Translations under genes and position numbers: made by a program | Assembly (NCBI RefSeq): GCF_024748615.1 | Contig: NZ_CP087168.1 | Span: 124,001 to 188,000, forward strand | Direction of reading: 5' to 3' | From: Pseudomonas sp. B21-048 | GTDB lineage: Bacteria > Pseudomonadota > Gammaproteobacteria > Pseudomonadales > Pseudomonadaceae | DNA length: 64,000 bases | Shown: positions 11,838 to 61,431 of the stretch, in pieces | Layout of the letters: every line of letters starts with the position of its first letter | Position numbering within the stretch: position 1 is the first letter of the stretch | The notes under the pieces: generated by a model | Databases searched by the model: none | Told to the model about the DNA's origin: nothing | Seen by the model: only the letters and a program-made list of their open reading frames with translations

Positions 11838-11974
11838 TGATCGTTCCCACGCTCTGCGTGGGAATGCAGCCCGTGACGCTCCGCGTCACAACGGTGTCAG
11901 GCGCAACGCCGGCGGTGGGGCTGGAACGCGGAGCGTCCCTTGAGGCATTCCCACGCAGAGCGTGGGAACGATCA
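11838..11974. repeat. 136-bp inverted-repeat element, copy 1
   Basis: The ends are exact inverted repeats (TGATCGTTCCCACGCTCTGC and its complement, continuing to about 30 bases). Inside are smaller hairpins such as GTGACGCTCCGCGTCAC. A near-identical copy lies at 12592-12727. No coding capacity; it is like other dispersed palindromic elements of Pseudomonas and may be mobilised in trans. Confidence 0.85.
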
Positions 11975-12045: not shown

Positions 12046-12302
12046 AAGGCTAGTCTGGCCTTGTCACTGAATAATCGGTGACACGGACGTGCAAGTCCGA
12101 CCAAACTGTTCAGGTAGCGTGCTGCCATTCCTCTCAATGAACATTTCGATGTTCACTGCTTTATGGCGGCTGCGCGCAGGAGATCCTCGGATCTGCTGGG
12201 TGTCCTAAACAGTCCCGGTCTTGCACACCTGCGCACGGCCGCCACCCTATTCGCGTGCAAGCGAACGGTGACGGCTCCAACATACTGTTTAGGGTATTTC
12301 TT
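12046..12302 (+). ncRNA. Structured leader RNA upstream of the DUF6124 gene (candidate translational switch)
   Basis: Helices seen by eye: 12046-12062, 12063-12082, 12084-12099 (stem CGGAC/GTCCG, loop GTGCAA), 12138-12155, a 17-bp closing stem 12164-12180 with 12228-12244, inside it 12181-12194 with a CTCG loop, and 12196-12218 whose 13-base loop contains CCTAAACAGT. After the stem comes hairpin 12250-12265 (TTCGC/GCGAA), again with loop GTGCAA. CCTAAACAGT is exactly complementary to ACTGTTTAGG (12284-12293), which holds the Shine-Dalgarno bases of the next gene, and with one mismatch to ACTGTTCAGG at 12105-12114. CTTGCAC (12220-12226) is complementary to both GTGCAA loops. A second element on the minus strand at 57559-57823 keeps this whole plan with different bases. 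Function as a switch is inferred. Confidence 0.75.
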
Positions 12303-12575
12303 ATGTTCAAAGTAACGCCGAATCCCCCTGGCCACCGCAAAGGCCGCCTCTTCACCGTCTCCCCCGACATCGACACTGAAGCCCTTCTCGCCAACGCCTC
12401 CGAAGACTTGCTCTCCATCAGCGCCATCGCCGCCGACCTGGCGGATGATGTGGAAGGTTCACGGCGATCCATAGCCTTGGCCCTCAGCCGAATGGCCGAT
12501 GGCGTGCAGTTGTTGGTGGAACGAGCGCTGGATCACCTTGAATCGCCGCAGATGCAGGATCGGGCCAAGGTTTAG
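12303..12575 (+). CDS. DUF6124 family small protein
   Basis: A 90-residue protein starting MFKVTPNPP, the typical opening of the Pseudomonas DUF6124 family. Function is unknown. The body is helical and acidic (DTEALLANASEDLLSISAIAADLADDVEGSRR), with no signal peptide or membrane segment. ATG 12303 has AGGG 8 bases upstream, and that site is complementary to a loop of the leader RNA just upstream, so translation is probably controlled. The RNA plus this gene are bracketed by two copies of the same palindromic element. Confidence 0.85.
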   Translation: MFKVTPNPPGHRKGRLFTVSPDIDTEALLANASEDLLSISAIAADLADDVEGSRRSIALALSRMADGVQLLVERALDHLESPQMQDRAKV

Positions 12576-12591: not shown

Positions 12592-12727
12592 TGATCGTTC
12601 CCACGCTCTGCGTGGGAATGCAGCCCGTGACGCTCCGCGTCACAACGGTGCCAGACGCAACGCCGGCGGTGGGGCTGGAACGCGGAGCGTCCCTTGAGGC
12701 ATTCCCACGCAGAGCGTGGGAATGATC
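12592..12727. repeat. 136-bp inverted-repeat element, copy 2
   Basis: Almost the same sequence and orientation as copy 1 at 11838-11974; the few differences include the last bases (GGAATGATC for GGAACGATC). The two copies flank the leader RNA and DUF6124 gene at 5' and 3' sides. Confidence 0.85.
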
Positions 12728-16200: not shown

Positions 16201-19200
16201 GTTGCTGCCATCGGTCACCGTCACGGTGATGATCCGCGGCACGGTGCTCGGGTCATCACTGCTGTTGGTGAAGCTGATGTTTTTGATCTGCTGCATGTAG
16301 TCGGCCAGCGTCGCGTTGCCCGACAAGGTCAGGGTGACCGTGCCGTCCTGGCTGTTGGCATTGATGGTGATGCCATTGACGCTGTTGCCCAGGTTCAGCG
16401 CGTCGCCCGGCTGACGGTTGGTCAGCACGATGGTCGCGCCGGTCAGCATCGTGCTGTCCGGGTCGGTGATTTTCAGGTCGGTGTCGCCGATCGAGACGCC
16501 CTGGCCGGTGGTGCCTTCAGTGAAGGTCACGTTGTAGTTGGCCCCGGTGGCTCCGCTGGAGTTGTTGGCATCCAGGTCGAGAACCGGCGCAGCATCGTTG
16601 TCGATGATCGAGGTGCTGACGCTGCCATTGGAAGCGCTGACCGCGAGGTTTTCGAAGTTACCACCCGTGGCCGAGTCGATCTTGACCACGAAGTTTTCGG
16701 TGCCTTCGGTGAGCTTGTCGTCCAGCGTCGCGACGTTGAAGCTCGCGCTGCTGGCGCCAGCCGGGATTTTCACGGTGTATACACCGGTGAAATCCGAACC
16801 GTCGGCGGCGGTGCCGCTGTAGACGATTTTCAGCGTCACTTCGGTCTGCGCCGGGTGGGTCAGGCTGACGGTGTAGCTGGCGGTCTGGCCTTCGGTGACC
16901 GAGGTACTGCCGCTGATGCTGACTTCGGTTTTGTCGATTGTGTCGGTGACGGTGGTGACTGCCGCTGTGTTGCTGGTGACCAGGTTTTCGAAGTTGCCAC
17001 CGGTGGCGGTGGAGATGGTCGCCTGGACAGTGCCGGCGTCTTTGTAGACGTCGTCCTTCGGTGCATCGACAGTCACGGTGCCGGTGGTTTTACCGGCGTC
17101 GATGGTGATCACGGCACCGTTGCTCAACGTCACGGTCACCGGAGTGCCGGCGGCGTTGGTCAGGGTTGCGGTGTAAGTGATCTGGCTACCTTCGGCGACC
17201 GAGTTGGATGCGCTCAGGCTGAGAGTGGTGGTTTCGACGGTGTCGGTCACCGTGGTGCTGACCGGCGTTTTATCCGCCACCAGGTTCTCATAGTTACCGC
17301 CGCTGACGCTGCTGATCGAGTTGGTCAGCGGGGTATGACCAGCCAAAGCATCGTTCGGCGCCGCGGTGGTCACGGTACCGGTGGTTTTACCAACTTCGAT
17401 AGTGATCGTCTGGCCGTTGGCCAAGGACACGGTGACCGGGCTGCCAGTCACGGGTGCACCGACAGTCGCGGTGTAGGTGACGGTGCCGCCTTCAGCTGCC
17501 GAAGCGGTGGCGTTCAGGGTGACGGTCGAGGTGTCGATGGTGTCGGTGATGCTGGTGACCGCGGGAGCCGTGCTTGGCACCAGGTTTTCGAAGTTACCGC
17601 CGGTGGCGTCTTTGATGGTTGCTTCGACGGTACCGGCGTCTTTGTAGACGTCGTCCTTCGGCGCATCGACGGTCACGGAACCAGTGGTTTTGCCCGCATC
17701 GATGGTGATCACTGCGCCGTTCGACAACGTCACGGTCACTGGTGTGCCGGCGGCGTTGGTCAAGGTCGCGGTGTAAACGATGGAACCGCCTTCAGCGACC
17801 GAGTCGGTTGCGCTCAGGCTGAGAGTGGTGGTGCTCGCGGTATCAGTTACCGAGGTGTCGGCCGACTTGCCGTCGACGTCCAGTTTTTCGTAGTTGCCGC
17901 CTTTGGCGTCGTTGATTTTTACGCTCAATGAACCACCGCCGGCCAGGGCATCGTTCGGCGCGGTGAAGTTGACGCTGGCGCTGCTCGAGCCGACCGGGAT
18001 GGTAATGGTCTGGCCATTGGACAGGGTGACAACCACTGGCGAACCGGTGACCGGTGCGCTCACTGATGCGGTGTAAACCACGGTGCCGCCTTCAGCCACA
18101 GTGCTGGTCGCAGTGAGGTTCACGGTCGAAGTGTCGATGGTATCGGTGACGTTGGTGATCGCCGCCGCCGGGTTGGTCGCCAGATTTTCGAAGTTACCAC
18201 CGCTCGCGTCTTTGATGGTCGCTTCGACGGTGCCGGCGTCTTTGTAGACGTCGTCTTTTGGTGCGTCGACAGTTACGGAGCCAGTGGTTTTGCCCGCTTC
18301 GATGGTGATCACGGCGCCGTTCGACAAGGTCACGGTGACCGGTGTGCCGGCGGCATTGGTCAAGGTCGCGGTATAAACAATCGACCCACCTTCAGCGACC
18401 GAGTCAGTAGCGCTCAGGCTGAGAGTGGTGGTGCTCGCGGTATCAGTCACCGAGGTGTCGGCCGACTTGCCGTCGACGTCCAGCTTCTCGTAGTTGCCGC
18501 CCGTAGCGCTGTTGATCTTGACGCTCAATGAACCGCCACCGGCCAGTGCATCGTTCGGCGCGGTGAAATTCACGCTGGCGCTGCTCGAGCCGACCGGGAT
18601 GGTGATGGTCTGGCCGTTGGACAGGGTCACGACCACTGGCGAACCGGTGACCGGCGCGGACACGGACGCGGTGTAAACCACGGTGCCGCCTTCAGCCACA
18701 GTGCTGGTCGCAGTGAGGTTCACGATCGAAGTGTCGATGGTGTCAGTCACGTCGGTAATCGCAGCCGCCGGGTTGGTGGCCAGATTTTCGAAGTTGCCAC
18801 CGGTGGCGGTGGAGATGGTTGCCTGGACGGTGCCGGCGTCCTTGTAGACGTCGTCCTTCGGCGCATCGACGGTCACGGAGCCGGTGGTTTTGCCGGCGGC
18901 GATGGTGATCACGGCGCCGTTGCTCAGCGTGACGGTCACTGGTGTGCCGGCGGCATTGGTCAAGGTCGCGGTATAAACAATCGACCCACCTTCAGCGACC
19001 GAGTCAGTAGCGCTCAGGCTGAGAGTGGTGGTGCTCGCGGTATCAGTCACCGAGGTGTCGGCCGACTTGCCGTTAACGTCCAGTTTTTCGTAGTTGCCGC
19101 CCGTTGCGCCGTCAATCTTGACGCTCAGGGAGGTGCCTCCGGCCAGGGCATCGTTCGGTGCAGTAAAGTTGACGCTGGCGCTGCTCGAACCGACCGGAAT

Positions 19201-22200
19201 GGTGATGGTCTGGCCGTTGGACAGGGTGACAACCACTGGCGAACCGGTGACCGGCGCTGACACGGACGCCGTGTAAACCACGGTGCCGCCTTCAGCCACA
19301 GTGCTGGTCGCAGTGAGGTTCACGGTCGAAGTGTCGATGGTGTCGGTGACGTCGGTAATCGCAGCCGCCGGGTTGGTGGCCAGATTTTCGAAGTTGCCAC
19401 CGGTGGCGGTGGAGATGGTTGCCTGGACGGTGCCGGCGTCCTTGTAGACGTCGTCCTTCGGCGCATCGACGGTCACGGAGCCGGTGGTGGCACCGGCGGC
19501 GATGGTGATCACGGCACCGTTGCTCAACGTCACGGTCACTGGCGTGCCGGCGGCGTTGGTCAAGGTCGCGGTGTAAACGATCGAACCGCCTTCAGCGACC
19601 GAGTCAGTAGCGCTCAGGCTGAGAGTGGTGGTGTCCGCAGTGTCAGTCACCAAGGTGTCGGCTGGCTTGCCGTCGACGTCCAGCTTCTCGTAATTACCGC
19701 CCGTTGCGCCGTCAATCTTGACGCTCAGGGAGCTGCCGCCCGCCAAGGGGCTGTTTGGCGCGACAAAGTTCACGCTGCCAGTAGTTTCGCCGACCGGGAT
19801 GGTGATGGTTTGGCCGTTGGAAAGAGTGACGACCACTGGCGAACCGGTGACTGGCGCAGAGACCGAAGCGGTGTAAACCACGGTGCCGCCTTCGGCGACG
19901 CTCGAAGTGGCAGTCAGCGAAACGGTGCTGGTGTCGATGGTGTCATTGACGGTGGTCACCGCCGGGGTGTCGCTGGCGACCAGCTTCTCGAAGTTACCGC
20001 CGGTCGTACCTGTGATCGTCGCTTCGACGGTGCCGGCGTCCTTGTAGACGTCGTCCTTCGGTGCATCGACGGTCACAGTGCCGGTGGTTTTGCCCGCTTC
20101 GATGGTGATGACGGCGCCGTTCGACAGGGTCACGGTGACCGGTGTGCCGGCCGCGTTGGTCAGGGTCGCGGTGTAGGTGATCTGGCAGCCTTCATCCACG
20201 GCATCGGTCGCGGTCAGCGACAGGTGGGTGGTGTCCTGGGTATCGGTCACCGAGGTGTCCGCCGACTTGCCGTCGACGTCCAGTTTTTCGTAGTTGCCGC
20301 CTTTGGCGTCGTTGATTTTGACGCTCAGTGAACCACCGCCGGCCAGCGCATCATTTGGCGCAGTGAAATTCACGCTGGCGCTGCTCGAGCCGACCGGAAT
20401 GGTGATGGTCTGGCCGTTGGACAGGGTCACGACCACTGGCGAACCGGTGACCGGTGCGCTGACGGATGCGGTGTAAACCACCGTGCCGCCTTCAGCCACA
20501 GTGCTGGTCGCAGTGAGGTTCACGGTCGAAGTGTCGATGGTGTCAGTCACGTCGGTGACCGCAGCCGCCGGGTTGGTGGCCAGCTTCTCGAAGTTGCCGC
20601 CGGTGGCGGTGGAGATGGTTGCCTGGACGGTGCCGGCGTCCTTGTAGACGTCGTCCTTCGGCGCATCGACGGTCACGGAGCCGGTGGTGGCACCGGCGGC
20701 GATGGTGATTACGGCGCCGTTCGACAAGGTCACGGTCACCGGGGTGCCGGCCGCATTGGTCAGGGTCGCGGTGTAAACGATGGAACCACCTTCAGCGACC
20801 GAGTCAGTAGCGCTCAGGCTGAGAGTGGTGGTGCTCGCGGTATCAGTTACCGAGGTGTCGGCTGACTTGCCGTCGACGTCCAGTTTTTCGTAGTTGCCAC
20901 CTTTGGCGTCGTTGATTTTGACGCTCAGGGAGCTGCCGCCAGCCAGGGCATCGTTCGGCGCAGTGAAGTTGACACTGGCGCTGCTCGAACCGACCGGGAT
21001 GGTGATGGTCTGGCCATTGGACAGGGTGACAACCACTGGCGAACCGGTGACCGGTGCGCTCACTGATGCGGTGTAAACCACGGTGCCGCCTTCAGCCACA
21101 GTGCTGGTCGCAGTGAGGTTCACGGTCGAAGTGTCGATGGTATCGGTGACGTTGGTGATCGCCGCCGCCGGGTTGGTCGCCAGATTTTCGAAGTTACCAC
21201 CGCTCGCGTCTTTGATGGTCGCTTCGACGGTGCCGGCGTCCTTGTAGACGTCGTCCTTCGGTGCATCGACGGTCACGCTGCCGGTGGTGGCACCGGCGGC
21301 GATGGTGATCACGGCGCCGTTGCTCAATGTCACGGTCACTGGTGTGCCGGCGGCGTTGGTCAGGGTGGCGGTGTAAACGATGGAACCGCCTTCAGCGACC
21401 GAGTCAGTAGCGCTCAGGCTGAGAGTGGTGGTGCTCGCGGTATCGGTCACTGAGGTGTCGGCCGACTTGCCGTTAACGTCCAGTTTTTCGTAGTTGCCGC
21501 CCGTTGCGCCGTCAATCTTGACGCTCAATGAACCACCGCCGGCCAGGGCATCGTTCGGCGCGGTGAAGTTGACGCTGGCGCTGCTCGAACCGACCGGAAT
21601 GGTGATGGTCTGGCCGTTGGACAGGGTCACAACCACTGGCGAGTCGGTGACCGGTGCGCTGACGGACGCGGTGTAAACCACGGTGCCGCCTTCAGCCACA
21701 GTGCTGGTCGCAGTGAGGTTCACGGTCGAAGTGTCGATGGTGTCAGTCACATCGGTGACTGCCGCCGCCGGGTTGGTGGCCAGCTTCTCGAAATTGCCGC
21801 CAGTCGCATCTTTGATCGTGGCTTCGACGGTGCCGGCGTCTTTGTAGACGTCATCTTTCGGTGCGTCGACGGTCACGCTGCCGGTGGTGGCACCGGCGGC
21901 AATGGTGATCACGGCGCCATTCGACAAGGTCACGGTGACTGGTGTGCCGGCGGCGTTGGTCAAGGTCGCGGTGTAAACGATGGAGCCGCCTTCAGCGACC
22001 GAGTCGGTTGCGCTCAGGCTGAGAGTGGTGGTGCTCGCGGTATCGGTCACTGAGGTGTCGGCCGACTTGCCGTTAACGTCCAGTTTTTCGTAGTTGCCGC
22101 CTTTGGCGTCATCGATTTTGACGCTCAATGAACCACCGCCGGCCAGGGCATCGTTCGGCGCAGTGAAGTTGACGCTGGCGCTGCTCGAACCGACCGGAAT

Positions 22201-25200
22201 GGTGATGGTCTGGCCGTTGGACAGGCTGACAACCACTGGCGAGCCGGTGACCGGCGCTGACACGGACGCCGTGTAAACCACCGTGCCGCCTTCAGCCACA
22301 GTGCTGGTCGCAGTGAGGTTCACGGTCGAAGTGTCGATGGTATCGGTGACGTTGGTCACCGCCGGGGTGTCGCTGGCGACCAGCTTCTCGAAGTTACCGC
22401 CGGTGGCGGTGGAGATGGTTGCCTGGACGGTGCCGGCGTCTTTGTAGACGTCATCTTTTGGCGCATCGACAGTCACGGAACCGGTGGTTTTGCCCGCTTC
22501 GATGGTGATCACGGCACCGTTCGACAACGTCACGGTCACTGGCGTGCCGGCGGCATTGGTCAAGGTCGCGGTATAAACAATCGAACCACCTTCAGCGACC
22601 GAGTCGGTTGCGCTCAGGCTGAGAGTGGTGCTGCTCGCGGTATCAGTTACCGAGGTGTCGGCCGACTTGCCGTTAACGTCCAGTTTTTCGTAGTTGCCGC
22701 CCGTTGCGCCGTCAATCTTGACGCTCAGGGAGGTGCCTCCGGCCAGGGCATCGTTCGGTGCAGTAAAGTTGACGCTGGCGCTGCTCGAACCGACCGGAAT
22801 GGTGATGGTCTGGCCGTTGGACAGGGTCACGACTACTGGCGAACCGGTGACCGGTGCGCTGACGGATGCGGTGTAAACCACCGTGCCGCCTTCAGCCACA
22901 GTGCTGGTCGCAGTGAGGTTCACGGTCGAAGTGTCGATGGTGTCAGTCACGTCGGTGACCGCAGCCGCCGGGTTGGTGGCCAGCTTCTCGAAGTTGCCGC
23001 CGGTGGCGTCCTTGATGGTTGCTTCGACGGTACCGGCGTCTTTGTAGACGTCGTCCTTCGGTGCGTCGACGGTCACGGAACCAGTGGTTTTGCCCGCATC
23101 GATGGTGATCACTGCGCCGTTCGACAACGTCACGGTCACTGGTGTGCCGGCGGCGTTGGTCAAGGTCGCGGTATAAACAATCGAACCACCTTCAGCGACC
23201 GAGTCAGTAGCGCTCAGGCTGAGAGTGGTGGTGCTCGCGGTATCAGTTACCGAGGTGTCGGCCGACTTGCCGTCGACGTCCAGTTTTTCGTAATTGCCGC
23301 CTTTGGCGTCATCGATTTTGACGCTCAATGAACCACCGCCGGCCAGGGCATCGTTCGGCGCGGTGAAGTTGACGCTGGCGCTGCTCGAGCCGACCGGGAT
23401 GGTGATGATCTGACCGTTGGACAGTGTGACAACCACTGGCGAGCCGGTGACCGGCGCTGACACGGACGCCGTGTAAACCACCATGCCGCCTTCAGCCACA
23501 GTGCTGGTCGCAGTGAGGTTCACGGTCGAAGTGTCGATGGTATCGGTGACGTTGGTCACCGCCGGGGTGTCGCTGGCGACCAGCTTCTCGAAGTTGCCAC
23601 CGCTCGCATCTTTGATGGTCGCTTCGACGGTACCGGCGTCTTTGTAGACGTCGTCCTTCGGTGCATCGACGGTCACGCTGCCGGTGGTGGCACCGGCGGC
23701 GATGGTGATCACGGCACCGTTGCTCAACGTCACGGTCACTGGTGTGCCGGCCGCGTTGGTCAGGGTCGCGGTGTAAACGATGGAACCGCCTTCGGCCACG
23801 CAGTCAGTAGCGCTCAGGCTGAGAGTGGTGGTGTCCGCAGTGTCAGTCACCGAGGTGTCGGCCGACTTGCCGTCGACGTCCAGTTTTTCGTAGTTGCCGC
23901 CCGTTGCGCCGTCAATCTTGACGCTCAGGGAGGTGCCTCCGGCCAGGGCATCGTTCGGCGCGGTGAAGTTGACGCTGGCGCTGCTCGAGCCGACCGGGAT
24001 GGTAATGGTCTGGCCATTGGACAGGGTGACAACCACTGGCGAACCGGTGACCGGCGCCGACACCGAAGCGGTGTAAACCACGGTACCGCCTTCAGCCACA
24101 GTGCTGGTCGCAGTGAGGTTCACGGTCGAAGTGTCGATGGTATCAGTCACGTCGGTAATCGCGGCCGCCGGGTTGGTGGCCAGCTTCTCGAAGTTGCCGC
24201 CGGTGGCGTCCTTGATGGTTGCTTCGACGGTACCGGCGTCTTTGTAGACGTCGTCCTTCGGTGCGTCGACGGTCACGGAACCAGTGGTTTTGCCCGCATC
24301 GATGGTGATCACTGCGCCGTTCGACAACGTCACGGTCACTGGTGTGCCGGCGGCGTTGGTCAAGGTCGCGGTATAAACAATCGAACCACCTTCAGCGACC
24401 GAGTCAGTAGCGCTCAGGCTGAGAGTGGTGGTGCTCGCGGTATCAGTTACCGAGGTGTCGGCCGACTTGCCGTCGACGTCCAGTTTTTCGTAATTGCCGC
24501 CTTTGGCGTCATCGATTTTGACGCTCAATGAACCACCGCCGGCCAGGGCATCGTTCGGCGCGGTGAAGTTGACGCTGGCGCTGCTCGAGCCGACCGGGAT
24601 GGTGATGATCTGACCGTTGGACAGTGTGACAACCACTGGCGAGCCGGTGACCGGCGCTGACACGGACGCCGTGTAAACCACCATGCCGCCTTCAGCCACA
24701 GTGCTGGTCGCAGTGAGGTTCACGGTCGAAGTGTCGATGGTATCGGTGACGTTGGTCACCGCCGGGGTGTCGCTGGCGACCAGCTTCTCGAAGTTGCCAC
24801 CGCTCGCATCTTTGATGGTCGCTTCGACGGTACCGGCGTCTTTGTAGACGTCGTCCTTCGGTGCATCGACGGTCACGCTGCCGGTGGTGGCACCGGCGGC
24901 GATGGTGAACACGGCGCCGTTGCTCAACGTCACGGTCACTGGTGTGCCGGCCGCGTTGGTCAGGGTCGCGGTGTAAACGATGAAACCACCTTCAGCGACC
25001 GAGTCAGTAGCGCTCAGGCTGAGAGTGGTGGTGCTCGCGGTATCGGTCACCGAGGTGTCGGCCGGCTTGCCGTCGACGTCCAGCTTCTCGTAGTTGCCAC
25101 CCTTGGCGTCGTTGATTTTGACGCTCAGCGAACTGCCGCCGGCCAACGCATCGTTCGGCGCGGTGAAGTTCACGCTGGCGCTGCTCGAGCCAACCGGGAT

Positions 25201-28200
25201 GGTAATGGTCTGGCCATTGGACAGGGTGACGACCACTGGCGAACCGGTGACCGGTGCGCTAACGGACGCGGTGTAAACCACCGTGCCGCCTTCAGCCACA
25301 GTGCTGGTCGCAGTGAGGTTCACGGTCGAAGTGTCGATAGTGTCAGTCACCTCGGTAATCGCAGCCGCCGGGTTGGTGGCCAGATTTTCGAAGTTGCCGC
25401 CGGTGGCGGTGGAAATGGTTGCCTGGACGGTGCCGGCGTCTTTGTAGACGTCGTCTTTTGGCGCATCGACGGTCACGGAACCGGTAGTCGCACCGGTGGC
25501 AATGGTGATGACGGCGCCATTGCTCAACGTTACGGTCACTGGCGTGCCGGCGGCGTTGGTCAAGGTCGCGGTGTAAACGATGGAACCGCCTTCAGCGACC
25601 GAGTCGGTAGCGTTCAGGCTGAGAGTGGTGGTGCTCGCGGTATCAGTCACCGAGGTGTCGGCCGGCTTGCCGTCGACGTCCAGCTTCTCGTAGTTGCCAC
25701 CCTTGGCGTCGTTGATTTTGACGCTCAAGGAACCGCCACCGGCCAGGGCATCGTTCGGCGCGGTGAAATTGACGCTGGCGCTGCTCGAGCCGACCGGAAT
25801 GGTGATGGTCTGACCGTTGGACAGGGTGACAATCACTGGCGAACCGGTGACCGGCGCCGACACGGACGCCGTATAAACCACGGTGCCGCCTTCGGCGACG
25901 CTCGAAGTGGCACTCAGCGAAACGGTGCTGGTGTCGATGGTGTCGTTGACGGTGGTGACCGCGGGAGCCGTGCTTGGCACCAGGTTTTCGAAGTTGCCGC
26001 CGGTGGCGGTGGAGATGGTTGCCTGGACGGTGCCGGCGTCTTTGTAGACGTCGTCTTTTGGTGCATCGACAGTCACGGAGCCGGTGGTTTTACCCGCTTC
26101 GATGGTGATGACGGCGCCGTTGCTCAGCGTCACGGTCACTGGTGTGCCAGCGGCGTTGGTCAGGGTTGCGGTGTAAGTGATCTGGCCGCCTTCATCCACG
26201 GTGCCGGTCGCGGTCAGCGACAGGTGGGTGGTGTCCTGGGTATCGGTCACCGAGGTATTCGCCGACTTGCCGTCGACTTCCAGTTTCTCGTAATTGCCGC
26301 CCTTGGCGTCGTTGATTTTGACGCTCAGCGAACTACCGCCGGCCAACGCATCGTTCGGCGCGGTGAAGTTCACGCTGGCGCTGCTCGAGCCAACCGGGAT
26401 GGTGATGGTCTGGCCGTTGGACAGGGTGACAACCACTGGTGAGCCGGTAACCGGTGCGCTGACGGACGCGGTGTAAACCACAGTGCCGCCTTCGGCGACG
26501 CTCACAGTGGCAGTCAGCGAAACGGTGCTGGTGTCGATGGTGTCAGTCACGTCGGTGACCGCAGCCGCCGGGTTGGTGACCAGATTTTCGAAGCTGCCGC
26601 CGGTGGCGGTGGAGATGGTTGCCTGGACGGTGCCGGCGTCTTTGTAGACGTCGTCCTTCGGCGCATCGACGGTCACGGAGCCGGTGGTGGCACCGGCGGC
26701 GATGGTAATCACGGCGCCGTTCGACAAGGTCACGGTCACTGGTGTGCCGGCGGCATTGGTCAAGGTCGCGGTATAAACAATCGAACCGCCTTCAGCGACC
26801 GAGTCGGTTGCGCTCAAGCTGAGAGTGGTGGTGCTCGCGGTATCGGTCACTGAGGTGTCCGCCGACTTGCCGTCAACGTCCAGTTTTTCGTAGTTACCAC
26901 CTTTGGCGTCGTTGATTTTGACGCTCAGGGAGCTGCCGCCGGCCAGGGCATCGTTCGGCGCAGTGAAGTTGACGCTGGCGCTGCTCGAGCCGACCGGGAT
27001 GGTGATGATCTGACCGTTGGACAGGGTGACGACCACTGGCGAGCCGGTGACCGGAGCTGACACGGACGCCGTGTAAACCACGGTGCCGCCTTCAGCCACA
27101 GTGCTGGTCGCAGTGAGGTTCACGGTCGAAGTGTCAATGGTATCGGTGACGTCGGTGATCGCAGCCGCCGGGTTGGTGACCAGGTTCTCGAAGTTGCCGC
27201 CCGCGGCATTCTTGATGGTTGCTTCGACGGTACCGGCGTCTTTGTAGACGTCATCCTTCGGTGCATCGACGGTCACGCTGCCGGTAGTCGCACCGGCGGC
27301 AATGGTGATCACGGCGCCATTGCTCAGCGTGACGGTGACTGGTGTGCCGGCGGCGTTGGTCAAGGTCGCGGTGTAAACGATGGAGCCGCCTTCAGCGACG
27401 GAGTCGGTTGCGCTCAGGCTGAGAGTGGTGGTGCTCGCGGTATCAGTTACCGAGGTGTCGGCCGACTTGCCGTCGACGTCCAGCTTTTCGTAGTTACCGC
27501 CTTTGGCGTCGTTGATTTTGACGCTCAGCGAGCCGCCACCGGCCAGGGCATCGTTCGGCGCAGTGAAGTTCACGCTGGCGCTGTTCGAACCGACCGGGAT
27601 GGTGATGGTCTGGCCGTTGGACAGGGTCACAACCACCGGCGAACCGGTGACCGGCGCGCTGACGGAGGCGGTGTAAACCACGGTGCCGCCTTCAGCGACG
27701 CTCGAAGTGGCACTCAGCGAGACGGTGCTGGTGTCGATGGTGTCGTTGACGGTGGTCACCGCCGGGGTATCGCTGGTGACCAGCTTCTCGAAGTTGCCGC
27801 CGGTCGCATCTTTAATGGTCGCTTCGACGGTACCGGCGTCTTTATAAACATCATCGGCAGGCGCATCGACGCTCACGCTGCCGGTGGTTTTACCCGCTTC
27901 GATGGTGATGACGGCACCGTTCGACAAGGTCACGGTCATCGGTGTGCCGGCCGGGTTGGTCAGGGTCGCGGTGTAGGTGATCTGGCCGCCTTCGACGACG
28001 CTGCCGGTGGCACTGAGGCTCAGGCAGGTGTCGTCGACCGAATCGGTAATGGTAGTGAGTGCCGGTTCGGTGCTCGGATTCAGTTGCTCGAAATTGCCGC
28101 CGGTGGTGCCGGTGATCGTGGTGCTGACGGTGCTGCCGTTGTTGTAGACGTCGTTGGCCGCGGTGTCGACAGTCACGCTGCCGGTGGTCTTGCCCGCTTC

Positions 28201-31200
28201 GATGGTAATGACCGAGCCGTTGCTCAAGGTCACGGTCATCGGTGTGCCGGCCGGGTTGGTCAGGGTCGCGGTGTAGGTGATCTGGCCGCCTTCGACGACG
28301 GTGCCGGTGGCACTGAGGCTCAGGCAGGTGTCGTCGACCGAATCGGTAATGGTAGTGAGTGCCGGTTCGGTGCTCGGGTTCAGTTGCTCGAAATTGCCGC
28401 CGGTGGTGCCGGTGATCGTGGTGCTGACGGTGCTGCCGTTGTTGTAGACGTCGTTGGCCGCGGTGTCGACAGTCACGCTGCCGGTGGTCTTGCCCGCTTC
28501 GATGGTAATGACCGAGCCGTTGCTCAAGGTCACGGTCATCGGTGTGCCGGCCGGGTTGGTCAGGGTCGCGGTGTAGGTGATCTGGCCGCCTTCGACGACG
28601 CTGCCGGTGGCACTGAGGCTCAGGCAGGTGTCGTCGACCGAATCGGTAATGGTAGTGAGTGCCGGTTCGGTGCTCGGGTTCAGTTGCTCGAAATTGCCGC
28701 CGGTGGTGCCGGTGATCGTGGTGCTGACGGTGCTGCCGTTGTTGTAGACGTCGTTGGCCGCGGTGTCGACAGTCACGCTGCCGGTGGTCTTGCCCGCTTC
28801 GATGGTAATGACCGAGCCGTTGCTCAAGGTGACGGTCATCGGTGTGCCGGCCGGGTTGGTCAGGGTCGCGGTGTAGGTGATCTGGCCACCTTCGACGACG
28901 GTGCCGGTGGCACTGAGGCTCAGGCAGGTGTCGTCGACCGAATCGGTAATGGTAGTGAGTGCCGGTTCGGTGCTCGGGTTCAGTTGCTCGAAATTGCCGC
29001 CGGTGGTGCCGGTGATCGTGGTGCTGACGGTGCTGCCGTTGTTGTAGACGTCGTTGGCCGCGGTGTCGACAGTCACGCTGCCGGTGGTCTTGCCCGCTTC
29101 GATGGTAATGACCGAGCCGTTGCTCAAGGTGACGGTCATCGGTGTGCCGGCCGGGTTGGTCAGGGTCGCGGTGTAGGTGATCTGGCCACCTTCGACGACG
29201 GTGCCGGTGGCACTGAGGCTCAGGCAGGTGTCGTCGACCGAATCGGTAATGGTAGTGAGTGCCGGTTCGGTGCTCGGGTTCAGTTGCTCGAAATTGCCGC
29301 CGGTGGTGCCGGTGATCGTGGTGCTGACGGTGCTGCCGTTGTTGTAGACGTCGTTGGCCGCGGTGTCGACAGTCACGCTGCCGGTGGTCTTGCCCGCTTC
29401 GATGGTAATGACCGAGCCGTTGCTCAAGGTGACGGTCATCGGTGTGCCGGCCGGGTTGGTCAGGGTCGCGGTGTAGGTGATCTGGCCACCTTCGACGACG
29501 GTGCCGGTGGCACTGAGGCTCAGGCAGGTGTCGTCGACCGAATCGGTAATGGTAGTGAGTGCCGGTTCGGTGCTCGGGTTCAGTTGCTCGAAATTGCCGC
29601 CGGTGGTGCCGGTGATCGTGGTGCTGACGGTGCTGCCGTTGTTGTAGACGTCGTTGGCCGCGGTGTCGACAGTCACGCTGCCGGTGGTCTTGCCCGCTTC
29701 GATGGTAATGACCGAGCCGTTGCTCAAGGTGACGGTCATCGGTGTGCCGGCCGGGTTGGTCAGGGTCGCGGTGTAGGTGATCTGGCCACCTTCGACGACG
29801 GTGCTGGTGGCACTGAGGCTCAGGCAGGTGTCGTCGACCGAATCGGTAATGGTAGTGAGTGCCGGTTCGGTGCTCGGGTTCAGTTGCTCGAAATTGCCGC
29901 CGGTGGTGCCGGTGATCGTGGTGCTGACGGTGCTGCCGTTGTTGTAGACGTCGTTGGCCGCGGTGTCGACAGCTCACGGAACCGGTGGTCTTGACCGGCT
30001 TCGATGGTGATGGCCGAACCGTTGGACAAGGTCACGGTGACGGGTGTCTGTGCCGGGTTGGTCAGGGTTGCGGTGTAAGTGATCTGACCGCCTTCGGTGA
30101 CGGTCGAGCCCGCCGTCAGCGTGACGGTGGTGGTGTCGACCGAATCGGTAATGGTGGTGACGGCCGGCGTGGTGTTCGGCACCAGATTGCTCGAAGTTGC
30201 CGCCGGTGGCGCCGGTAATCGTGGTGCTGACGGTGCTGCCATTGTTGTAGACGTCGTTGGCCGGCGTCGGAACGTTCACGCTGCCGGTGGTGTTGCCCGC
30301 GGCGATGGTGATGGTCGAACCGTTGGACAAGGTGACGGTGACCGGCGTCTGCGCCGGATTGGTCAATGTCGCGGTGTAGGTGATCTGGCCACCTTCAGTG
30401 ACGGTCGAGCCCGCTGACAGTGTGATGGTGGTGGTGTCGATGGTGTCGGTGACTTGGGTCACGGCCGGAACGGTCGGCAGGGTGACCACGATACCGCTGC
30501 CGCCCGTGGTGCCGGTGACGGTCACGTTGATCTGGGTCGGATCGTTATAAACCGTGTCGTTCGGTGCCAGCGGAACGTTGACGGTGCCGGTGGTTTGGCC
30601 GGCTGCAATCACGATCACCGAGCCGTTGGACAGGGTGATGGTCAGGTCGGTCAGCGGTGCCTGGGTCAGGGTCGCGGTATAAACCAGCACGCCACCGGCC
30701 TCGGTGATGGTTGGCGTGGCACTCAGACTCAGCGTCGATTCAAGCGGGGCATTGGTGCTGGTGCCAGCAGTCTGGCCGCCGGTGGTGGCTTGTGCTGCCA
30801 AAGCGGCAGTGGCGAGACCCTCGGTCGGGAAGCCGATAGTCGGATCCACCCGGCCAGCGGTTGCATCCAGCACCACGAAGCTATGGCCACCACCCGCAGC
30901 ACCACCCGTACCCGCAGCCGCAGGGCCGGCGGCGGTGGCTTCAAGAGCGGTGGTCGGGTCGACGCCGGCGGCGATGGCTTGCTGCAATTCGTCAACCGAG
31001 GGCGCGGCTTGTGCAGTGGCCTGCGCAAGGTCGGTGCTGGAATCCGGATTGCTGCCGCTCCACTGCGTGTCGCGGCCCAGGTCCAGGGTGCGGCCATCAG
31101 TCAGTTCGAGCGTGATGGCACCGGCGGCACCGGTGTCTACCTGATCGCCGACAAACAACCGGTCGCCTTCAACGAGTACGCGGCGGACGCCTTCTGGCGA

Positions 31201-56660: not shown

Positions 56661-56741
56661 GGTGAACAGCGGTCGGCAAATTTGGCATCGACACCCGAAA
56701 GCGCGCACTATCGGCCCATAGCCGATGCGTTGGAGGATGCC

Positions 56742-56948
56742 GTGGCACAAAAAATCGACCGCATCGCCCAAATGCTCAACTGCCCGGTGAAGGGTGAGGA
56801 ATTACGGCGAGCAGTGACTGAGAGTCGTAAGGAGTTTCTGCTGGCGAAGCAGGCAGAAGAAGCGCTTGAGGAAGACGTTCTTGATGATGAGTTGATCGAG
56901 GACGAAGAGGATGATGATTACGACGAGTTTGACTGGACGACAGAATGA
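56742..56948 (+). CDS. Small acidic protein of unknown function
   Basis: 68 residues starting (GTG) MAQKIDRIAQMLNCPVKGEE, with a strongly acidic tail (EDVLDDELIEDEEDDDYDEF then DWTTE). GTG 56742 has GGAGG 5 bases upstream. No known domain. The last 14 codons are repeated at 59700-59745 (see repeat entry), which suggests the 3' end was a site of insertion or recombination. Confidence 0.7.
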   Translation: MAQKIDRIAQMLNCPVKGEELRRAVTESRKEFLLAKQAEEALEEDVLDDELIEDEEDDDYDEFDWTTE

Positions 56949-57362: not shown

Positions 57363-57467
57363 CTATTCGCTAATAGGCACCCCAGCGCTGACACGAAACA
57401 GCGGATCGTCTGCACAGTAAAGGCAGGGTGTGAAACCGATGGTTTTTGCTTCTGAGTGTTCAGTCAT
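57363..57467 (-). CDS. Truncated DUF3077-like small protein
   Basis: 34 residues: MTEHSEAKTIGFTPCLYCAD then DPLFRVSAGVPISE. The final block (PLFRV.AGVP) matches the middle of DUF3077 proteins, which are normally 80-100 residues, but a TAG follows. Strong GGAGG upstream of ATG 57467. Its start overlaps the stop of the 32-residue gene upstream, so the two are coupled. Confidence 0.45.
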   Translation of the reverse strand: MTEHSEAKTIGFTPCLYCADDPLFRVSAGVPISE

Positions 57468-57558
57468 TTGTCACCTCCATTAACGGAGGTGCGGTGGGGC
57501 ACGATTCGAAATCGCGGTGAGGGATAAGCCTAATTTCGTACGGATTTATATTGCGCAT
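57460..57558 (-). CDS. Tiny gene (32 residues) directly under control of the leader RNA
   Basis: MRNINPYEIRLIPHRDFESC then PTAPPLMEVTND; not recognised. ATG 57558 has a very good AAGGAG 7 bases upstream. That ribosome site (GTCAAGGA, 57574-57567) is exactly complementary to a loop of the upstream RNA. The stop overlaps the start of the DUF3077-like frame. It may be a real small protein or a leader peptide. Confidence 0.5.
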   Translation of the reverse strand: MRNINPYEIRLIPHRDFESCPTAPPLMEVTND

Positions 57559-57823
57559 GGTCTAGCTCCTTGACGAGGAACTGCCACTTTTTCGTTACCA
57601 AGCGAATGGGTGGCAGCTGTGCGCAGGTTGGTAAACCGGGAGTCAAGGAATCCGGCACGCCCGAAGACGTCCCACGCACAGCCGCCATAACTCAAAATTG
57701 CGGGCATAAAAAAACGCCTGCAAATCTAATGGGGGCGCTGTTGCGCTTAACTCTCGGGTTACCAAGCCCGGCCGCTGAATTGGCAGCGACGGCGGAAGGG
57801 TATCGTGCAGGCTGATCTCCTGC
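57559..57823 (-). ncRNA. Structured leader RNA, second copy (candidate translational switch)
   Basis: Read on the minus strand, helices are 57823-57807, 57790-57771, 57770-57755 (stem CGGG/CCCG, loop CTTGGTAA), 57746-57735, 57722-57699, a 17-bp closing stem 57687-57671 with 57627-57611, inside it 57670-57657 with a TTCG loop, and 57655-57636 whose loop holds TCCTTGAC. Then comes hairpin 57606-57591 with the same loop CTTGGTAA. TCCTTGAC is complementary to the ribosome site GTCAAGGA (57574-57567), and its CTTGAC part also to GTTAAG at 57751-57746. TTACCAA (57634-57628) matches both CTTGGTAA loops. Same plan as 12046-12302 with changed bases. A frame antisense to this (57570-57815) is not a gene. 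Confidence 0.75.
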
Positions 57824-58038
57824 AACCTCCGCAGACCTCATGCGTCTAGCCGACGATAAAAGTAACAATCGACATTCATGCTGAGTTTTGTACGAGCGAT
57901 TTCCGAGAGTCGTCAGAATTTTCTCGTCAATCAACCGGAGGCCCGTCTGCGGCAGTAGTCAACTTTTAGTTTACAACTGCCCCTTCAGCCGGCTCACCGT
58001 CAGTCAATAGCTCATTCCGTTGTCATGGGCCCTCTCGA

Positions 58039-59034
58039 CTAGAGTGGCAAGTAGGTCAGCTTCAGTGGAATCAATCTCTTGGTTTCCGAATCCGTCTGCC
58101 CATAGTGTTCAATCAACGCGCGTACGAGGTTATCCAGCGTCCAAAGCGTCAGCGGCACACTGGCCCGTTCTGCTTCGTAGTAGGCATCCTTACTGAATCC
58201 ACCTGTGCTGACATAAAGCCCACGATCATCCTTATGCCGACCTCCAAGAAAACTACGGATTTGTTGACTGCCCATCTGGTCTTTGCGGTGTTTGACTTCA
58301 ACGATAATCCGCGGGTTTTCAAACCCGAATCCATCCGGCGACGCAATGATGTCTTTTCCACGATCAGGGCCAGCAGGGGAGACCTGGGTCTTGTAGCCCA
58401 TCGCACGCAAGATACCTGCGACCAAGTCCTGCATATCATCCCAAGGCAATGCGTTGATAAGGTCCTTGATGCGTTCGAGAGCCAGACTTTCCATGCCCGC
58501 CAGAGGATCGCTGTCGGGGTATTCCTCTTCAACGGTTGGTAACGCGGGTGGCTTGTCTCCAGCCGCCATCGCTTTCAATTCCTGGAGCGCAAAGTCAGGT
58601 ACGACAAAGACTGTAAGTGTGGAGCCGAGACTATTCTTGCTGGCAGAACTCAGGCTGTCGCGATCCACTTCTTGAGCCAGCCATTGAACTGGGCGGGTCA
58701 GTGACATTCCAAGGTCGGCGAGATCAGGATTGTGTTTGAAGTCGCCGGTGATTTTGCCCACCAAATAAGTGCGATTGGCGGGTGAATATGTCACCACCCA
58801 ATCACCGGGCTGAATTTCATTGATAAAGCGCCATACCTGCGAGGCGCCTGAAATTGCAGTGCCTGGTTTGATATTGGGTTCAATATCTTGGTAGAGGCGA
58901 GTGACTTCCTTGCGCGTCATACCAGGTTTGGCCAGCGGCGCGAGTTGTGACCATCCAATGGCGGCGACACCGCGTTCACGAAAATCGTCGTATAACCGGC
59001 CAGACTCGCCACGAATCATCCACATTTTGGCCAT
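58039..59034 (-). CDS. Mrr-family restriction endonuclease-like protein
   Basis: 331 residues. N-terminal domain (MWMIRGESGRLYDDFRERGVAAIGW, GDWVVTYSPANRTYLVGKITG) looks like a PUA/EVE-like reader domain. The C-terminal Mrr catalytic domain has MQDLVAGILRAMGYKTQVS, PDRGKDIIASPDG and IIVEVKHRK (the D...ExK site), then GSQQIRSFLGG. Such stand-alone enzymes cut modified foreign DNA. ATG 59034 with GGAAG 5 bases upstream. It sits in a patchwork region with an IS remnant. Confidence 0.87.
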   Translation of the reverse strand: MAKMWMIRGESGRLYDDFRERGVAAIGWSQLAPLAKPGMTRKEVTRLYQDIEPNIKPGTAISGASQVWRFINEIQPGDWVVTYSPANRTYLVGKITGDFKHNPDLADLGMSLTRPVQWLAQEVDRDSLSSASKNSLGSTLTVFVVPDFALQELKAMAAGDKPPALPTVEEEYPDSDPLAGMESLALERIKDLINALPWDDMQDLVAGILRAMGYKTQVSPAGPDRGKDIIASPDGFGFENPRIIVEVKHRKDQMGSQQIRSFLGGRHKDDRGLYVSTGGFSKDAYYEAERASVPLTLWTLDNLVRALIEHYGQTDSETKRLIPLKLTYLPL

Positions 59035-59376: not shown

Positions 59377-59607
59377 TTAAGCACTACAAGACAACTGAAA
59401 AATATAATCCGGACTGCCGAAGGTCTTGCCAGTCATGCTTTCAAGGCGACTTACCTGCTCAGACGATAGTTCGTATTCATAGATCGCATCCTCTGGCTCA
59501 CTCCAGGCCATGAGCTCCGCTAACATATCGAACTGGTCGGCAGGTATCTCGATACTGAATGCCAGTTGTTCGGTTTTCTTGTCGAATGCAAGAATCTCAT
59601 GCTGCAT
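59377..59607 (-). CDS. Immunity-like small protein (orphan copy)
   Basis: 76 residues, acidic: MQHEILAFDKKTEQLAFSIE and so on, with LSSEQVSRLESMTGKTF. Pattern and size like the immunity gene at 59892-60131 (both have a LT/LSxEQVxxLE stretch). Directly upstream on the same strand is a tail fragment of a toxin like the one at 60147. So this looks like a leftover immunity gene from an older toxin module. ATG 59607 has GAGAGGA upstream. Confidence 0.65.
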   Translation of the reverse strand: MQHEILAFDKKTEQLAFSIEIPADQFDMLAELMAWSEPEDAIYEYELSSEQVSRLESMTGKTFGSPDYIFQLSCSA

Positions 59608-59627
59608 TTTTCGGGTTCCTCTCAAGA

Positions 59628-59699
59628 TTACTTTGGCGTGAATCGGCCCGGCTCGGCGTCCTTTGTGCGTTCTCCCGTGTCAGGGTCGAACTCTCCCAG
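59628..59699 (-). pseudogene. C-terminal tail fragment of an E3-like toxin gene
   Basis: The minus strand reads LGEFDPDTGERTKDAEPGRF then TPK and stop, nearly the same as the end of the toxin at 60147 (LGEFNPDTGERTKGAEPGRT then TSK). The similarity stops sharply at 59699/59700, where the copied 3' end of the small acidic gene begins. Only the last 24 codons remain. Confidence 0.75.
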
Positions 59700-59745
59700 A
59701 TCGAGGACGATGACTACGACGAGTTTGATTGGACGACTGAATGAA
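59700..59745 (+). repeat. Copy of the 3' end of the small acidic gene (possible insertion scar)
   Basis: ATCGAGGACGATGACTACGA and following bases encode IEDDDYDEFDWTTE and a stop, matching the end of the gene at 56742-56948 with some base changes; weaker similarity runs on for about 35 bases (to CCATTGAAG). This forms a direct repeat bracketing the segment from 56949 to 59699. Confidence 0.7.
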
Positions 59746-59891
59746 AGAGTCGCCTAGGTAGCCCATTGAAGTTGCTCCGGGTGGGCAGCGATCAAATGCA
59801 GATACGCTATTTGTTCGGTGGTGTGCACTACCTGGTGCGCATCGATCTGGTGAGGGTGCGCACCTCGTCGAACTTCAGCTATTAGCCCCTG

Positions 59892-60131
59892 CTATGCCCG
59901 TACACCGATGAATAGCTCCAATTCTTTCGGTAATGACTGTTGGATCGCAATTTCTAATTGTTGGACCTGCTCGCCGGTTAATGGAAGCTCGCCATTAGCT
60001 TCTGCCGCTAAGCTGTCCCAACCCAATACGTCCATAACCGCTTGCTCAAACTCAGGACTTACGTCGAACTCAAATTTGATCGAATCGTCTTCGTTGTCGC
60101 CTGCCAGGAAGCCCGTAATCTCTAAAAACAT
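59892..60131 (-). CDS. Immunity-like protein for the adjacent toxin
   Basis: 79 residues, very acidic: MFLEITGFLAGDNEDDSIKF, EFDVSPEFEQAVMDVLGWD, LPLTGEQVQQLEIAIQ. Starts 15 bases after the toxin stop with GGAGAG upstream. Small size, acidity and position are those of a bacteriocin or polymorphic toxin immunity protein, probably binding the nuclease domain. I cannot name the family with certainty. Confidence 0.7.
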   Translation of the reverse strand: MFLEITGFLAGDNEDDSIKFEFDVSPEFEQAVMDVLGWDSLAAEANGELPLTGEQVQQLEIAIQQSLPKELELFIGVRA

Positions 60132-60146
60132 TATTGCTCTCCGATA

Positions 60147-61431
60147 TCACTTTGATGTGGTTCGCCCTGGTTCAGCACCCTTTGTACGTTCTCCCGTATC
60201 GGGATTGAACTCTCCCAAATGCTTACCTTGCTTGTCGTAGAGTTCAATTCTGTCGTTTTCATAATCCCATTCATAAATTCTGCCCTTGCGATCTTTCCAG
60301 CGACTTCGTTTTTTGCCTCCGCCTTGGACGCTCGACATTTTTTTTGCACGTGTGGCGTCTGGGAAGGCTGTCAGAGTTTTAGGGGCGGGATGGTAGCTGT
60401 AGTCGCCGCCAATAGGCCGAGCAAACACCACGTACAGCGACTTCAACCCAGTGTCCACTGGAAACACCAGAATACAGTCCTCGGTGGTGATGTCTTCACC
60501 GGGGAGGCCTTCGATTTGACTGTCTGTGTTTTCCGGGATCGGGTGTACCAGGATAGTGCCGAGCTGTTCTCCGCTACTGTCGGGATAGATCAGCGGCGGC
60601 AATTCTCCTAGTGGCCCGCGCTGGGGCGTCCATAGAATAGTGATGCCATTGAGATTGGCTTCCATGGCGGTTTTATCGGCGTTCCAGTTGGCCTGCACCG
60701 TGCGTACGGTGTCGTCGCCTGATGCGGTGGTGTGGATGCCGTAGATCTGTAATGCGCCCTCAGCATCATGACGAAATTGAAAACGCACACCGGTAGGTGC
60801 ATGGGCGCATGCTGCGCAACTGAGTGTCGGTATGAAGCGTGCCGTCGCCCATCTTGGTCGGGAGCATGCCCAGTATGAAAACACTGGCTGGCCCGCCCGT
60901 ACTGCGTATTGCCCAATTGAGACGCTGTTGCAGGATGCCACCACCGGCCATGCGACCTAGTGCCAGATCGGCGCCGAGTGCGGTCGCTATGGCGGTACTG
61001 GCCGACGGAAAAAGCATGGCGCCCGCCACCATCACCTTGCCGAAGTTCGAAGCGGGCTCCGGGGCGGTACCGGCGTCGGTGCTACACCAGTTATCGGGGG
61101 TACAGGATTTGGCAAAGACCTGATCGTCGCGAGGCTTGGTCTGTGGCCATGGATCTTTTGGGGGGATGTAGACCGGTTCAGGCGCTGGCGCTGATCTCGC
61201 GATGAAGCCACCGCCTGAACTGGCAAAGCGATCCTTTACCAACAGCAAATCACCCTTACGGACGGCTTCGACAATCTCGCTGTCGCTGCTGATACGGGAA
61301 TGGCTCCCAAAATCAGCGAGTCCGTCGATGTTGTGGCGACCTCGCATCAGTGCGTCGTTCACCAATTGGGCGGCAGTGCTGGGGCTTTCGGTTTGTTCGA
61401 GGCCCTTGTCGGCATTCCTTATCAAACGCAT
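60147..61431 (-). CDS. S-type pyocin/polymorphic toxin with colicin E3-like nuclease end; frame broken near 60806
   Basis: Two frames join into about 427 residues if one extra base near 60805-60808 is removed. The first part (from ATG 61431, AGGGA upstream) includes MRLIRNADKGLEQTESPSTA and a small hydrophobic stretch (VMVAGAMLFPSASTAIATAL). The second frame gives HAPTGVRFQFRHDAEGALQI, the S-type pyocin domain, and ends with GGGKKRSRWKDRKGRIYEWD, YENDRIELYDKQGKHLGEFN, PDTGE, which is like the ribosome-targeting RNase of colicin E3. The spacing D-x-x-H-x-x-x-E of E3 reads D-Y-E-N-D-R-I-E here, so the catalytic His is Asn. There is no long receptor-binding N-terminus, so delivery may be by another route. 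A sequencing error or real decay is possible. Confidence 0.7.

Follow-up and report, generated by a model that had tools for sequence, protein, structure and literature searches.

C4 antisense RNA cassettes with individually matched pairing sites in the genome of Pseudomonas sp. B21-048

The C4 antisense RNAs form the RNA family of phage P1. Release of C4 from its transcript by RNase P has been reported for P1 and P7, and sequencing reads from Acinetobacter are consistent with it according to the main text of PMC5320573. In the Salmonella prophage Gifsy-1 the short RNA IsrK ends at a terminator and opens in trans the read-through mRNA of a leader ORF that is coupled to an anti-repressor; the authors also report a processed RNA downstream and kinship with seqA and CI of phage P4 (PMC4825925). 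Weinberg (2010) listed C4 from Proteobacteria and phages and the motif c4-a1b1 from gamma-Proteobacteria and phages in the body of the paper, and copies from Pseudomonas may be contained in its supplement (PMC2864571). The titles and beginnings of abstracts searched, mostly of freely accessible papers, do not describe C4 cassettes in multiple copies for Pseudomonas. Here we present two C4 cassettes found in a window of 64,000 nucleotides of Pseudomonas sp. B21-048 (NZ_CP087168.1, positions 124,001 to 188,000), together with their relatives in the same and other genomes. The RNA itself is filed as C4; what is new is the array of C4 cassettes with private codes.

The two cassettes of the window

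In cmscan both copies match Rfam family RF01695, C4 antisense RNA, above its gathering threshold of 45 bits: the copy on the minus strand (57606..57692) with 85.3 bits and copy 1 on the plus strand (12159..12249) with 62.9 bits. RF03163 (c4-a1b1) was detected upstream of the minus-strand copy (57751-57803; 55.1 bits, gathering 46.7), and copy 1 gave no RF03163 match at gathering in the same scan. The RNA is already known, as RF01695 with RF03163 upstream. A preliminary description of the two copies had stated that they would not be new if they matched an annotated Rfam family of different structure; the annotated family is there, the structure is unchanged. Naming of the parts follows the P1 record, with the 7-nt linker of C4 as a' and the loop of P3 as b'. 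Membership in C4 is reflected in the complementarity of a' and b' to sites a1 and b1 on the 5' side and to a2 and b2 on the 3' side in both copies, b1 of the minus-strand copy being a partial complement. The downstream contact covers the ribosome site in both.

All parts of the minus-strand cassette are read on that strand. A promoter-like TTGCAG...GATACC with a spacer of 15 nt was recognized by eye just 5' of the leader (57799..57825). The leader itself (57708..57790) comprises three hairpins, the last one terminator-like, and is similar to isrK (RF01394) over its full length, yet with 43.6 bits (E 4.6e-8) falls short of the gathering threshold of 50. It contains the a1 site TTGGTAA (57759..57765), complement of the C4 linker, and the b1 site GAGTTAAG (57746..57753), whose duplex with the P3 loop is calculated at -8.8 kcal/mol compared to a mean of -6.8 for other loops. 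The b1 pairing overlaps the 5' arm of an antiterminator-like hairpin GCGC-AACA-GCGC (57735..57746), and an intrinsic-terminator-like hairpin AGCGCC...GGCGTT with a U run lies between b1 and C4 (57708..57739). Within C4 the b' loop TCCTTGAC (57642..57649) is complementary to the ribosome-site region, and the a' linker reads TTACCAA (57628..57634). Downstream follow the a2 site TTGGTAA (57595..57601) and the b2 site GTCAAGGA (57567..57574), which lies over the greater part of the ribosome site AAGGAG. A leader ORF of 32 codons (57460..57558) overlaps the start codon of the next gene, which belongs to DUF3077 (57363..57467; Pfam 23.5 bits, cut-off 21). The downstream genes had been named correctly as DUF6124 and DUF3077, but the DUF3077 gene of this copy stops after 34 codons. 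Its intact counterpart occurs in the same cassette of another species (L085); because its own gene is truncated, the minus-strand cassette may be decaying, though its RNA scores highly.

Copy 1 shows the corresponding parts on the plus strand: the a1 site GTGCAAG (12089..12095), the b1 site ACTGTTCAGG with 9 of 10 pairs (12105..12114, by eye), the loop CCTAAACAGT (12204-12213), the linker CTTGCAC (12220-12226) that pairs with the GTGCAAG sites, the a2 site GTGCAAG (12255..12261) and, over the ribosome site, the b2 site ACTGTTTAGG (12284..12293) that pairs with the loop. The target gene (12303..12575) encodes a DUF6124 protein of 90 aa (Pfam 95.1 bits), which is predicted to form a helical hairpin (pLDDT 79.8); a structure search with this model yielded no specific PDB match. 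The closest named protein matches are from Pseudomonas frederiksbergensis and P. cucumis.

The pairings listed in the preliminary description are all present in the sequence of both copies. This includes the 17-bp long stem (57687-57671 with 57627-57611, minus strand), the apical tetraloop, TTCG in the minus-strand copy and CTCG in copy 1, the loop/ribosome-site pairs TCCTTGAC/GTCAAGGA and CCTAAACAGT/ACTGTTTAGG, respectively, and the second contact, TTACCAA/TTGGTAA and CTTGCAC/GTGCAAG, with its partner site both upstream and downstream. Absent from that description were the partial second upstream loop site b1 (57753-57746) and the terminator-like hairpin (57739-57708).

Several other features were noted in the window. 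The gene beside the minus-strand copy (58039-59034, minus strand) has an Mrr catalytic domain and is a PADLOC candidate (PDC-S02, 273 bits). Two plus-strand ORFs flanking the same copy (56682-56948 and 59559-59744) end in the same residues DDDYDEFDWTTE, a partial duplication. At 59377-61431 (minus strand) lies a putative bacteriocin gene with small immunity-like ORFs. Copy 1 is framed by a pair of directly oriented 135-bp palindromic repeats (11839-11973 and 12593-12727; 132 of 135 positions identical); the repeat is no general vehicle, because its core is found on both sides in only 2 of 32 cassettes. A repetitive ORF of 5504 aa (13225-29739, minus strand), presumably a giant LapA-type adhesin, has a LapD-type gene (Pfam) nearby (9886-11832).

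Distribution, structure and leader of the C4 units

The genome of strain B21-048 (5.71 Mb, one contig) contains 32 C4 matches over the cut-off. Of the 59 Pseudomonas genomes sampled, our own included, 53 carry C4 over the cut-off, and at E 0.001 the number rises to 54. Genomes with C4 have between 1 and 54 matches each. In a survey of the class with one genome per genus (151 genomes), C4 was present in our own genome and in 5 of the 150 others, each with 1-3 matches. The counts of both surveys are lower bounds because stricter filters were used and a limited number of candidates was scored; the class survey recovered 27 of the 32 own matches. Searches with proteins in place of the C4 RNA gave one match for the DUF6124 protein of copy 1 in a set of 50,697 phage records, located at the edge of EU982300, and none among 72,556 plasmids, and no match for one DUF3077 protein in the phage records.

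Structure was compared in 112 C4 units, the 32 of our genome and 80 from 43 other Pseudomonas genomes; consensus-like copies are favoured in this sample because the 80 were the top-scoring ones among the matches listed. Paired bases occupy 2949 of 3024 stem cells (97.5%) versus 88.2% when partners are shuffled without regard to relatedness. Changes on both sides are seen in 20 of the 27 stem pairs.

A hairpin with U run resembling an intrinsic terminator is located between b1 and C4 in 36 of 112 units versus 3 of 560 shuffled sequences, and by the same rule in 7 of 7 C4 loci of other genera. It was called in the minus-strand copy; copy 1 is without one. A competing antiterminator-like hairpin lies 5' of the terminator in 35 of the 36 terminator-bearing units, with an overlap between its 5' arm and the b1 pairing in 34; these counts are no test against chance because the search for the hairpin itself used complementarity to the terminator arm. 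Twenty sources, namely P1 and 19 of the 36 terminator-bearing units, were searched with the model isrK (RF01394); 19 gave a full-length match, nine of them over gathering, and the miss is L059. In Rfam c4-a1b1 belongs to clan CL00128, and no clan is shown for isrK. Since isrK matches C4 leaders at full length, and given the layout of IsrK in Gifsy-1 and its kinship with P4, the comparison suggests that the names isrK and c4-a1b1 refer to overlapping segments of a single leader, treated separately in Rfam.

Just 5' of the promoter region, 11 of the 32 cassettes (L013, L020, L022, L025-L027, L029, L031-L033 and L037) carry a block like GCCAGAATCCGCCGGCTTGTGCG, which has one match elsewhere in the same loci and is a possible common operator. 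Repeats like CCGACA...TGTCGG were seen by eye in another group of cassettes.

Pairing code and downstream genes

Between the linker and its own a2 site complementarity is perfect in 100 of 112 units and extends to at least 6 of 7 positions in all 112, versus 44 perfect matches and 1391 with at least 6 of 7 among 11,674 combinations with foreign a2 sites. For a1 the own site is perfect in 102 units and reaches at least 6 of 7 in 111, versus 31 and 2215 foreign combinations, respectively. The duplex between P3 loop and ribosome site has a calculated mean of -13.6 kcal/mol for the own target compared to -6.7 for foreign ones, and the own mean loop-to-target fit was reached by none of 20,000 permutations. 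The preliminary description had attributed the compensated changes to selection on RNA structure; the paired stem cells, the both-side changes and the permuted loop fit agree with it, and by this comparison of sequences such selection is well supported. The loop duplex overlaps AGG, GGA or GAG ahead of the start codon in 109 of 112 units, the exceptions being L020, L023 and L024, all of our own genome.

When the two contacts are summed, the own target is the best one in 30 of the 32 units of our genome and in 87 of all 112; within our genome the own target ranks first in 19 units by the loop contact alone and in 24 by the linker contact alone. All 32 own loops are distinct, with 22 distinct linkers for the 32 copies, and 86 distinct loops occur among the 112 units. 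Because nearly all of the 32 copies fit their own target better than those of others, each C4 would likely switch only its own gene. Some cross-talk is possible, with leaks predicted for L013 and L020, because in 25 of the 112 units the summed contacts do not place the own target first and 24 of 992 foreign pairs in our genome are as strong as -18 kcal/mol. Among the orthologues of copy 1, L126, L128 and L130 retain its loop, and L127, L129 and L131, with nearly the same protein, have a changed loop and a matching target. The own-genome units L019 and L035 likewise encode nearly the same protein behind different loops and linkers.

A set collected by protein comprised the best 80 of at least 386 DUF6124 loci and hence consists of close relatives; 65 of the 80 have a C4 upstream on the same strand. 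Here the linker fits its own site perfectly in 31 of 65 loci, versus 99 of 3136 foreign combinations, and at 6 or more positions in 54, and the loop duplex averages -12.1 kcal/mol for own and -6.3 for foreign targets, a weaker result in the same direction. Eleven of the 15 loci without C4 keep a c4-a1b1 below gathering.

The downstream gene, sought with its start 30-110 nt after C4, begins 46-56 nt after C4 in all 32 own units and 44-57 nt after it in the 80 others. By Pfam the 32 own genes comprise 22 of DUF6124, three of DUF3077, the truncated DUF3077 gene of the minus-strand copy, one at the QslA cut-off and five without a family. For 110 downstream genes (the 112 units less two) the assignments were 58 DUF6124, 20 DUF3077, 4 Bro-N and 1 QslA, the last just at its cut-off (25.6 versus 25 bits); the Bro-N type is an anti-repressor according to PHROGs. 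Conversely, 22 of 25 DUF6124 matches and 3 of 4 DUF3077 matches of our genome lie within 600 nt of a C4. Of the own DUF6124 genes free of C4, L123 keeps a c4-a1b1 below gathering, L121 has a remnant recognizable by eye only, and L122 has none. Among the 22 own DUF6124 cassettes, C4 and protein similarity are uncorrelated (Mantel r -0.02, equalled or exceeded in 2630 of 5000 permutations), so RNA and gene are not simply descended as one block.

DUF6124 is without mention in the titles, abstracts and papers searched, and DUF3077 appears there in one paper, in connection with one mutation. One gene of our genome, assigned to DUF6124 as well as to DUF3077 and lacking a C4 match in its vicinity, is divergent to a repressor with HTH and peptidase S24 domains (CI/LexA type), and in related loci the divergent protein is a CI/LexA-type repressor in 10 of 10 scanned (12 fetched). 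Two clues, the divergent position of this C4-free gene next to a repressor and the presence of Bro-N proteins and one protein at the QslA cut-off directly downstream of C4 in other cassettes, make it likely that the targets are anti-regulators of the anti-repressor or anti-activator type, possibly anti-repressors; this is the least certain step.

Some loci of these searches have further features. A c4-a1b1 below gathering, with no C4 at gathering, was recorded for L133, L151, L163, L166, L167, L176, L177, L190, L192, L198, L205 and L123; such loci could be targets of a C4 from elsewhere. At L122 (G000, 3717849-3719193) a CI-type repressor, the divergent DUF6124/DUF3077 gene and a PrrF sRNA occur in succession. 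The Rfam TwoAYGGAY RNA was found near the DUF6124 loci L197, L199, L201 and L205.

Proposed mechanism and comparison with known systems

We consider it probable that the minus-strand locus is a C4-type cassette, one of 32, whose C4 is predicted to be excised from the transcript that carries it and, through two contacts, to make the ribosome site of the small downstream gene inaccessible. The C4 structure, the contacts up- and downstream, the location of b2 over the ribosome site in the majority of units, the adjacent gene and the co-changing loops can be read from the nucleotides themselves. RNase P release, relief by the leader and self-limitation of C4 are modelled on P1, P4 and Gifsy-1. Transcription would begin at the leader hairpin, and a share of the transcripts would end at the terminator as a short IsrK-like leader RNA. 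A read-through transcript would be cut by RNase P, as in P1, and the released C4 would cover a2 and b2 and turn the neighbouring gene off. By offering a1 and b1, the leader RNA would titrate C4 and thereby relieve the gene, comparable to short IsrK, which opens its mRNA in Gifsy-1. C4 bound to b1 of the nascent leader would break the antiterminator hairpin and thus limit its own synthesis. Each gene is accordingly predicted to have a switch of three RNAs, the terminated leader, C4 as repressor and the target mRNA.

The position of all sites on one stretch in a single orientation would also suit an attenuator acting in cis, with the loops pairing inside one uncut transcript and no free antisense RNA, and the IsrK read-through RNA is described as folding on itself into an inactive form (PMC4825925). 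This reading is unlikely, as C4 retains its own closed fold, with 97.5% of cells paired across the units, its P1 relative is annotated as a separate RNA, and processed read pile-ups are reported for C4-type RNAs of Acinetobacter (PMC5320573). The authors of the latter study favoured trans targets for the RNAs of Acinetobacter baumannii, and the strong variation of the loops (86 distinct in 112) would fit small RNAs directed against other host genes or incoming phages; that in 30 of 32 cases C4 pairs best with its own adjacent site when the 32 sites of our genome are compared, and that orthologues re-code loop and adjacent target jointly, makes such a role here improbable. Least credible, with only a very slight probability, is that the cassettes are functionless passengers of repeat or gene shuffling. 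The truncated gene of the minus-strand copy and the position of copy 1 between two 135-bp repeats speak for it; pairing is nevertheless maintained while the loops turn over, and within a single genome the cassettes of almost identical proteins differ in their loops, each of which fits its own target.

Under the preferred reading of C4 as an antisense RNA released onto the adjacent gene, the cassettes resemble a phage lysis-lysogeny switch that became domesticated, increased in copy number and acquired private codes, so that cross-regulation is avoided. More tentatively, and with the balance of probability rather against so far-reaching a view, Pseudomonas may have turned a phage immunity switch into a genome-wide private antisense code, with up to 54 three-RNA switches per cell (leader as activator, C4 as repressor, and mRNA), each locked to one small anti-regulator and insulated by the re-coding of its loops after duplication. 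Dozens of copies of a riboregulator in one cell pose a problem, since a shared pairing code would presumably mean mutual silencing. The 32 copies with 32 different loops and adjacent targets are a natural test bed for antisense specificity after duplication, the cassettes would supply nearly orthogonal translation switches ready for use, and they give a first handle on DUF6124 and DUF3077.

Of the described systems, C4 of P1 (RF01695, AF234172) shares the set of stems, the order a1-b1-C4-a2-b2 and the contact with the ribosome site, and the short leader ORF of the minus-strand copy overlaps its target gene like icd-ant; here, in contrast, 32 paralogues reside in one chromosome, and the targets are mostly DUF6124 and DUF3077 instead of ant. 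IsrK-orf45-anrP of Gifsy-1 has terminator-ended leader hairpins, read-through to a coupled leader ORF and a processed RNA in between (PMC4825925), and the leader of the minus-strand copy matches isrK from end to end; the differences are the score below gathering and, in the Gifsy-1 account, a single locus with an anti-repressor target. In P4 the CI RNA lies between upstream and downstream target sites, seqA and seqC, with a structural homologue of IsrK upstream, but acts on transcription termination of replication genes according to the same paper (PMC4825925). The Group 1 C4-like sRNAs of Acinetobacter baumannii described by Weiss et al. (PMC5320573) are similar in number, with 21 related RNAs in one genome, and in their variable loops; their targets are left open in the main text of that study, with trans action favoured, whereas each copy described here has a matching adjacent site and gene.
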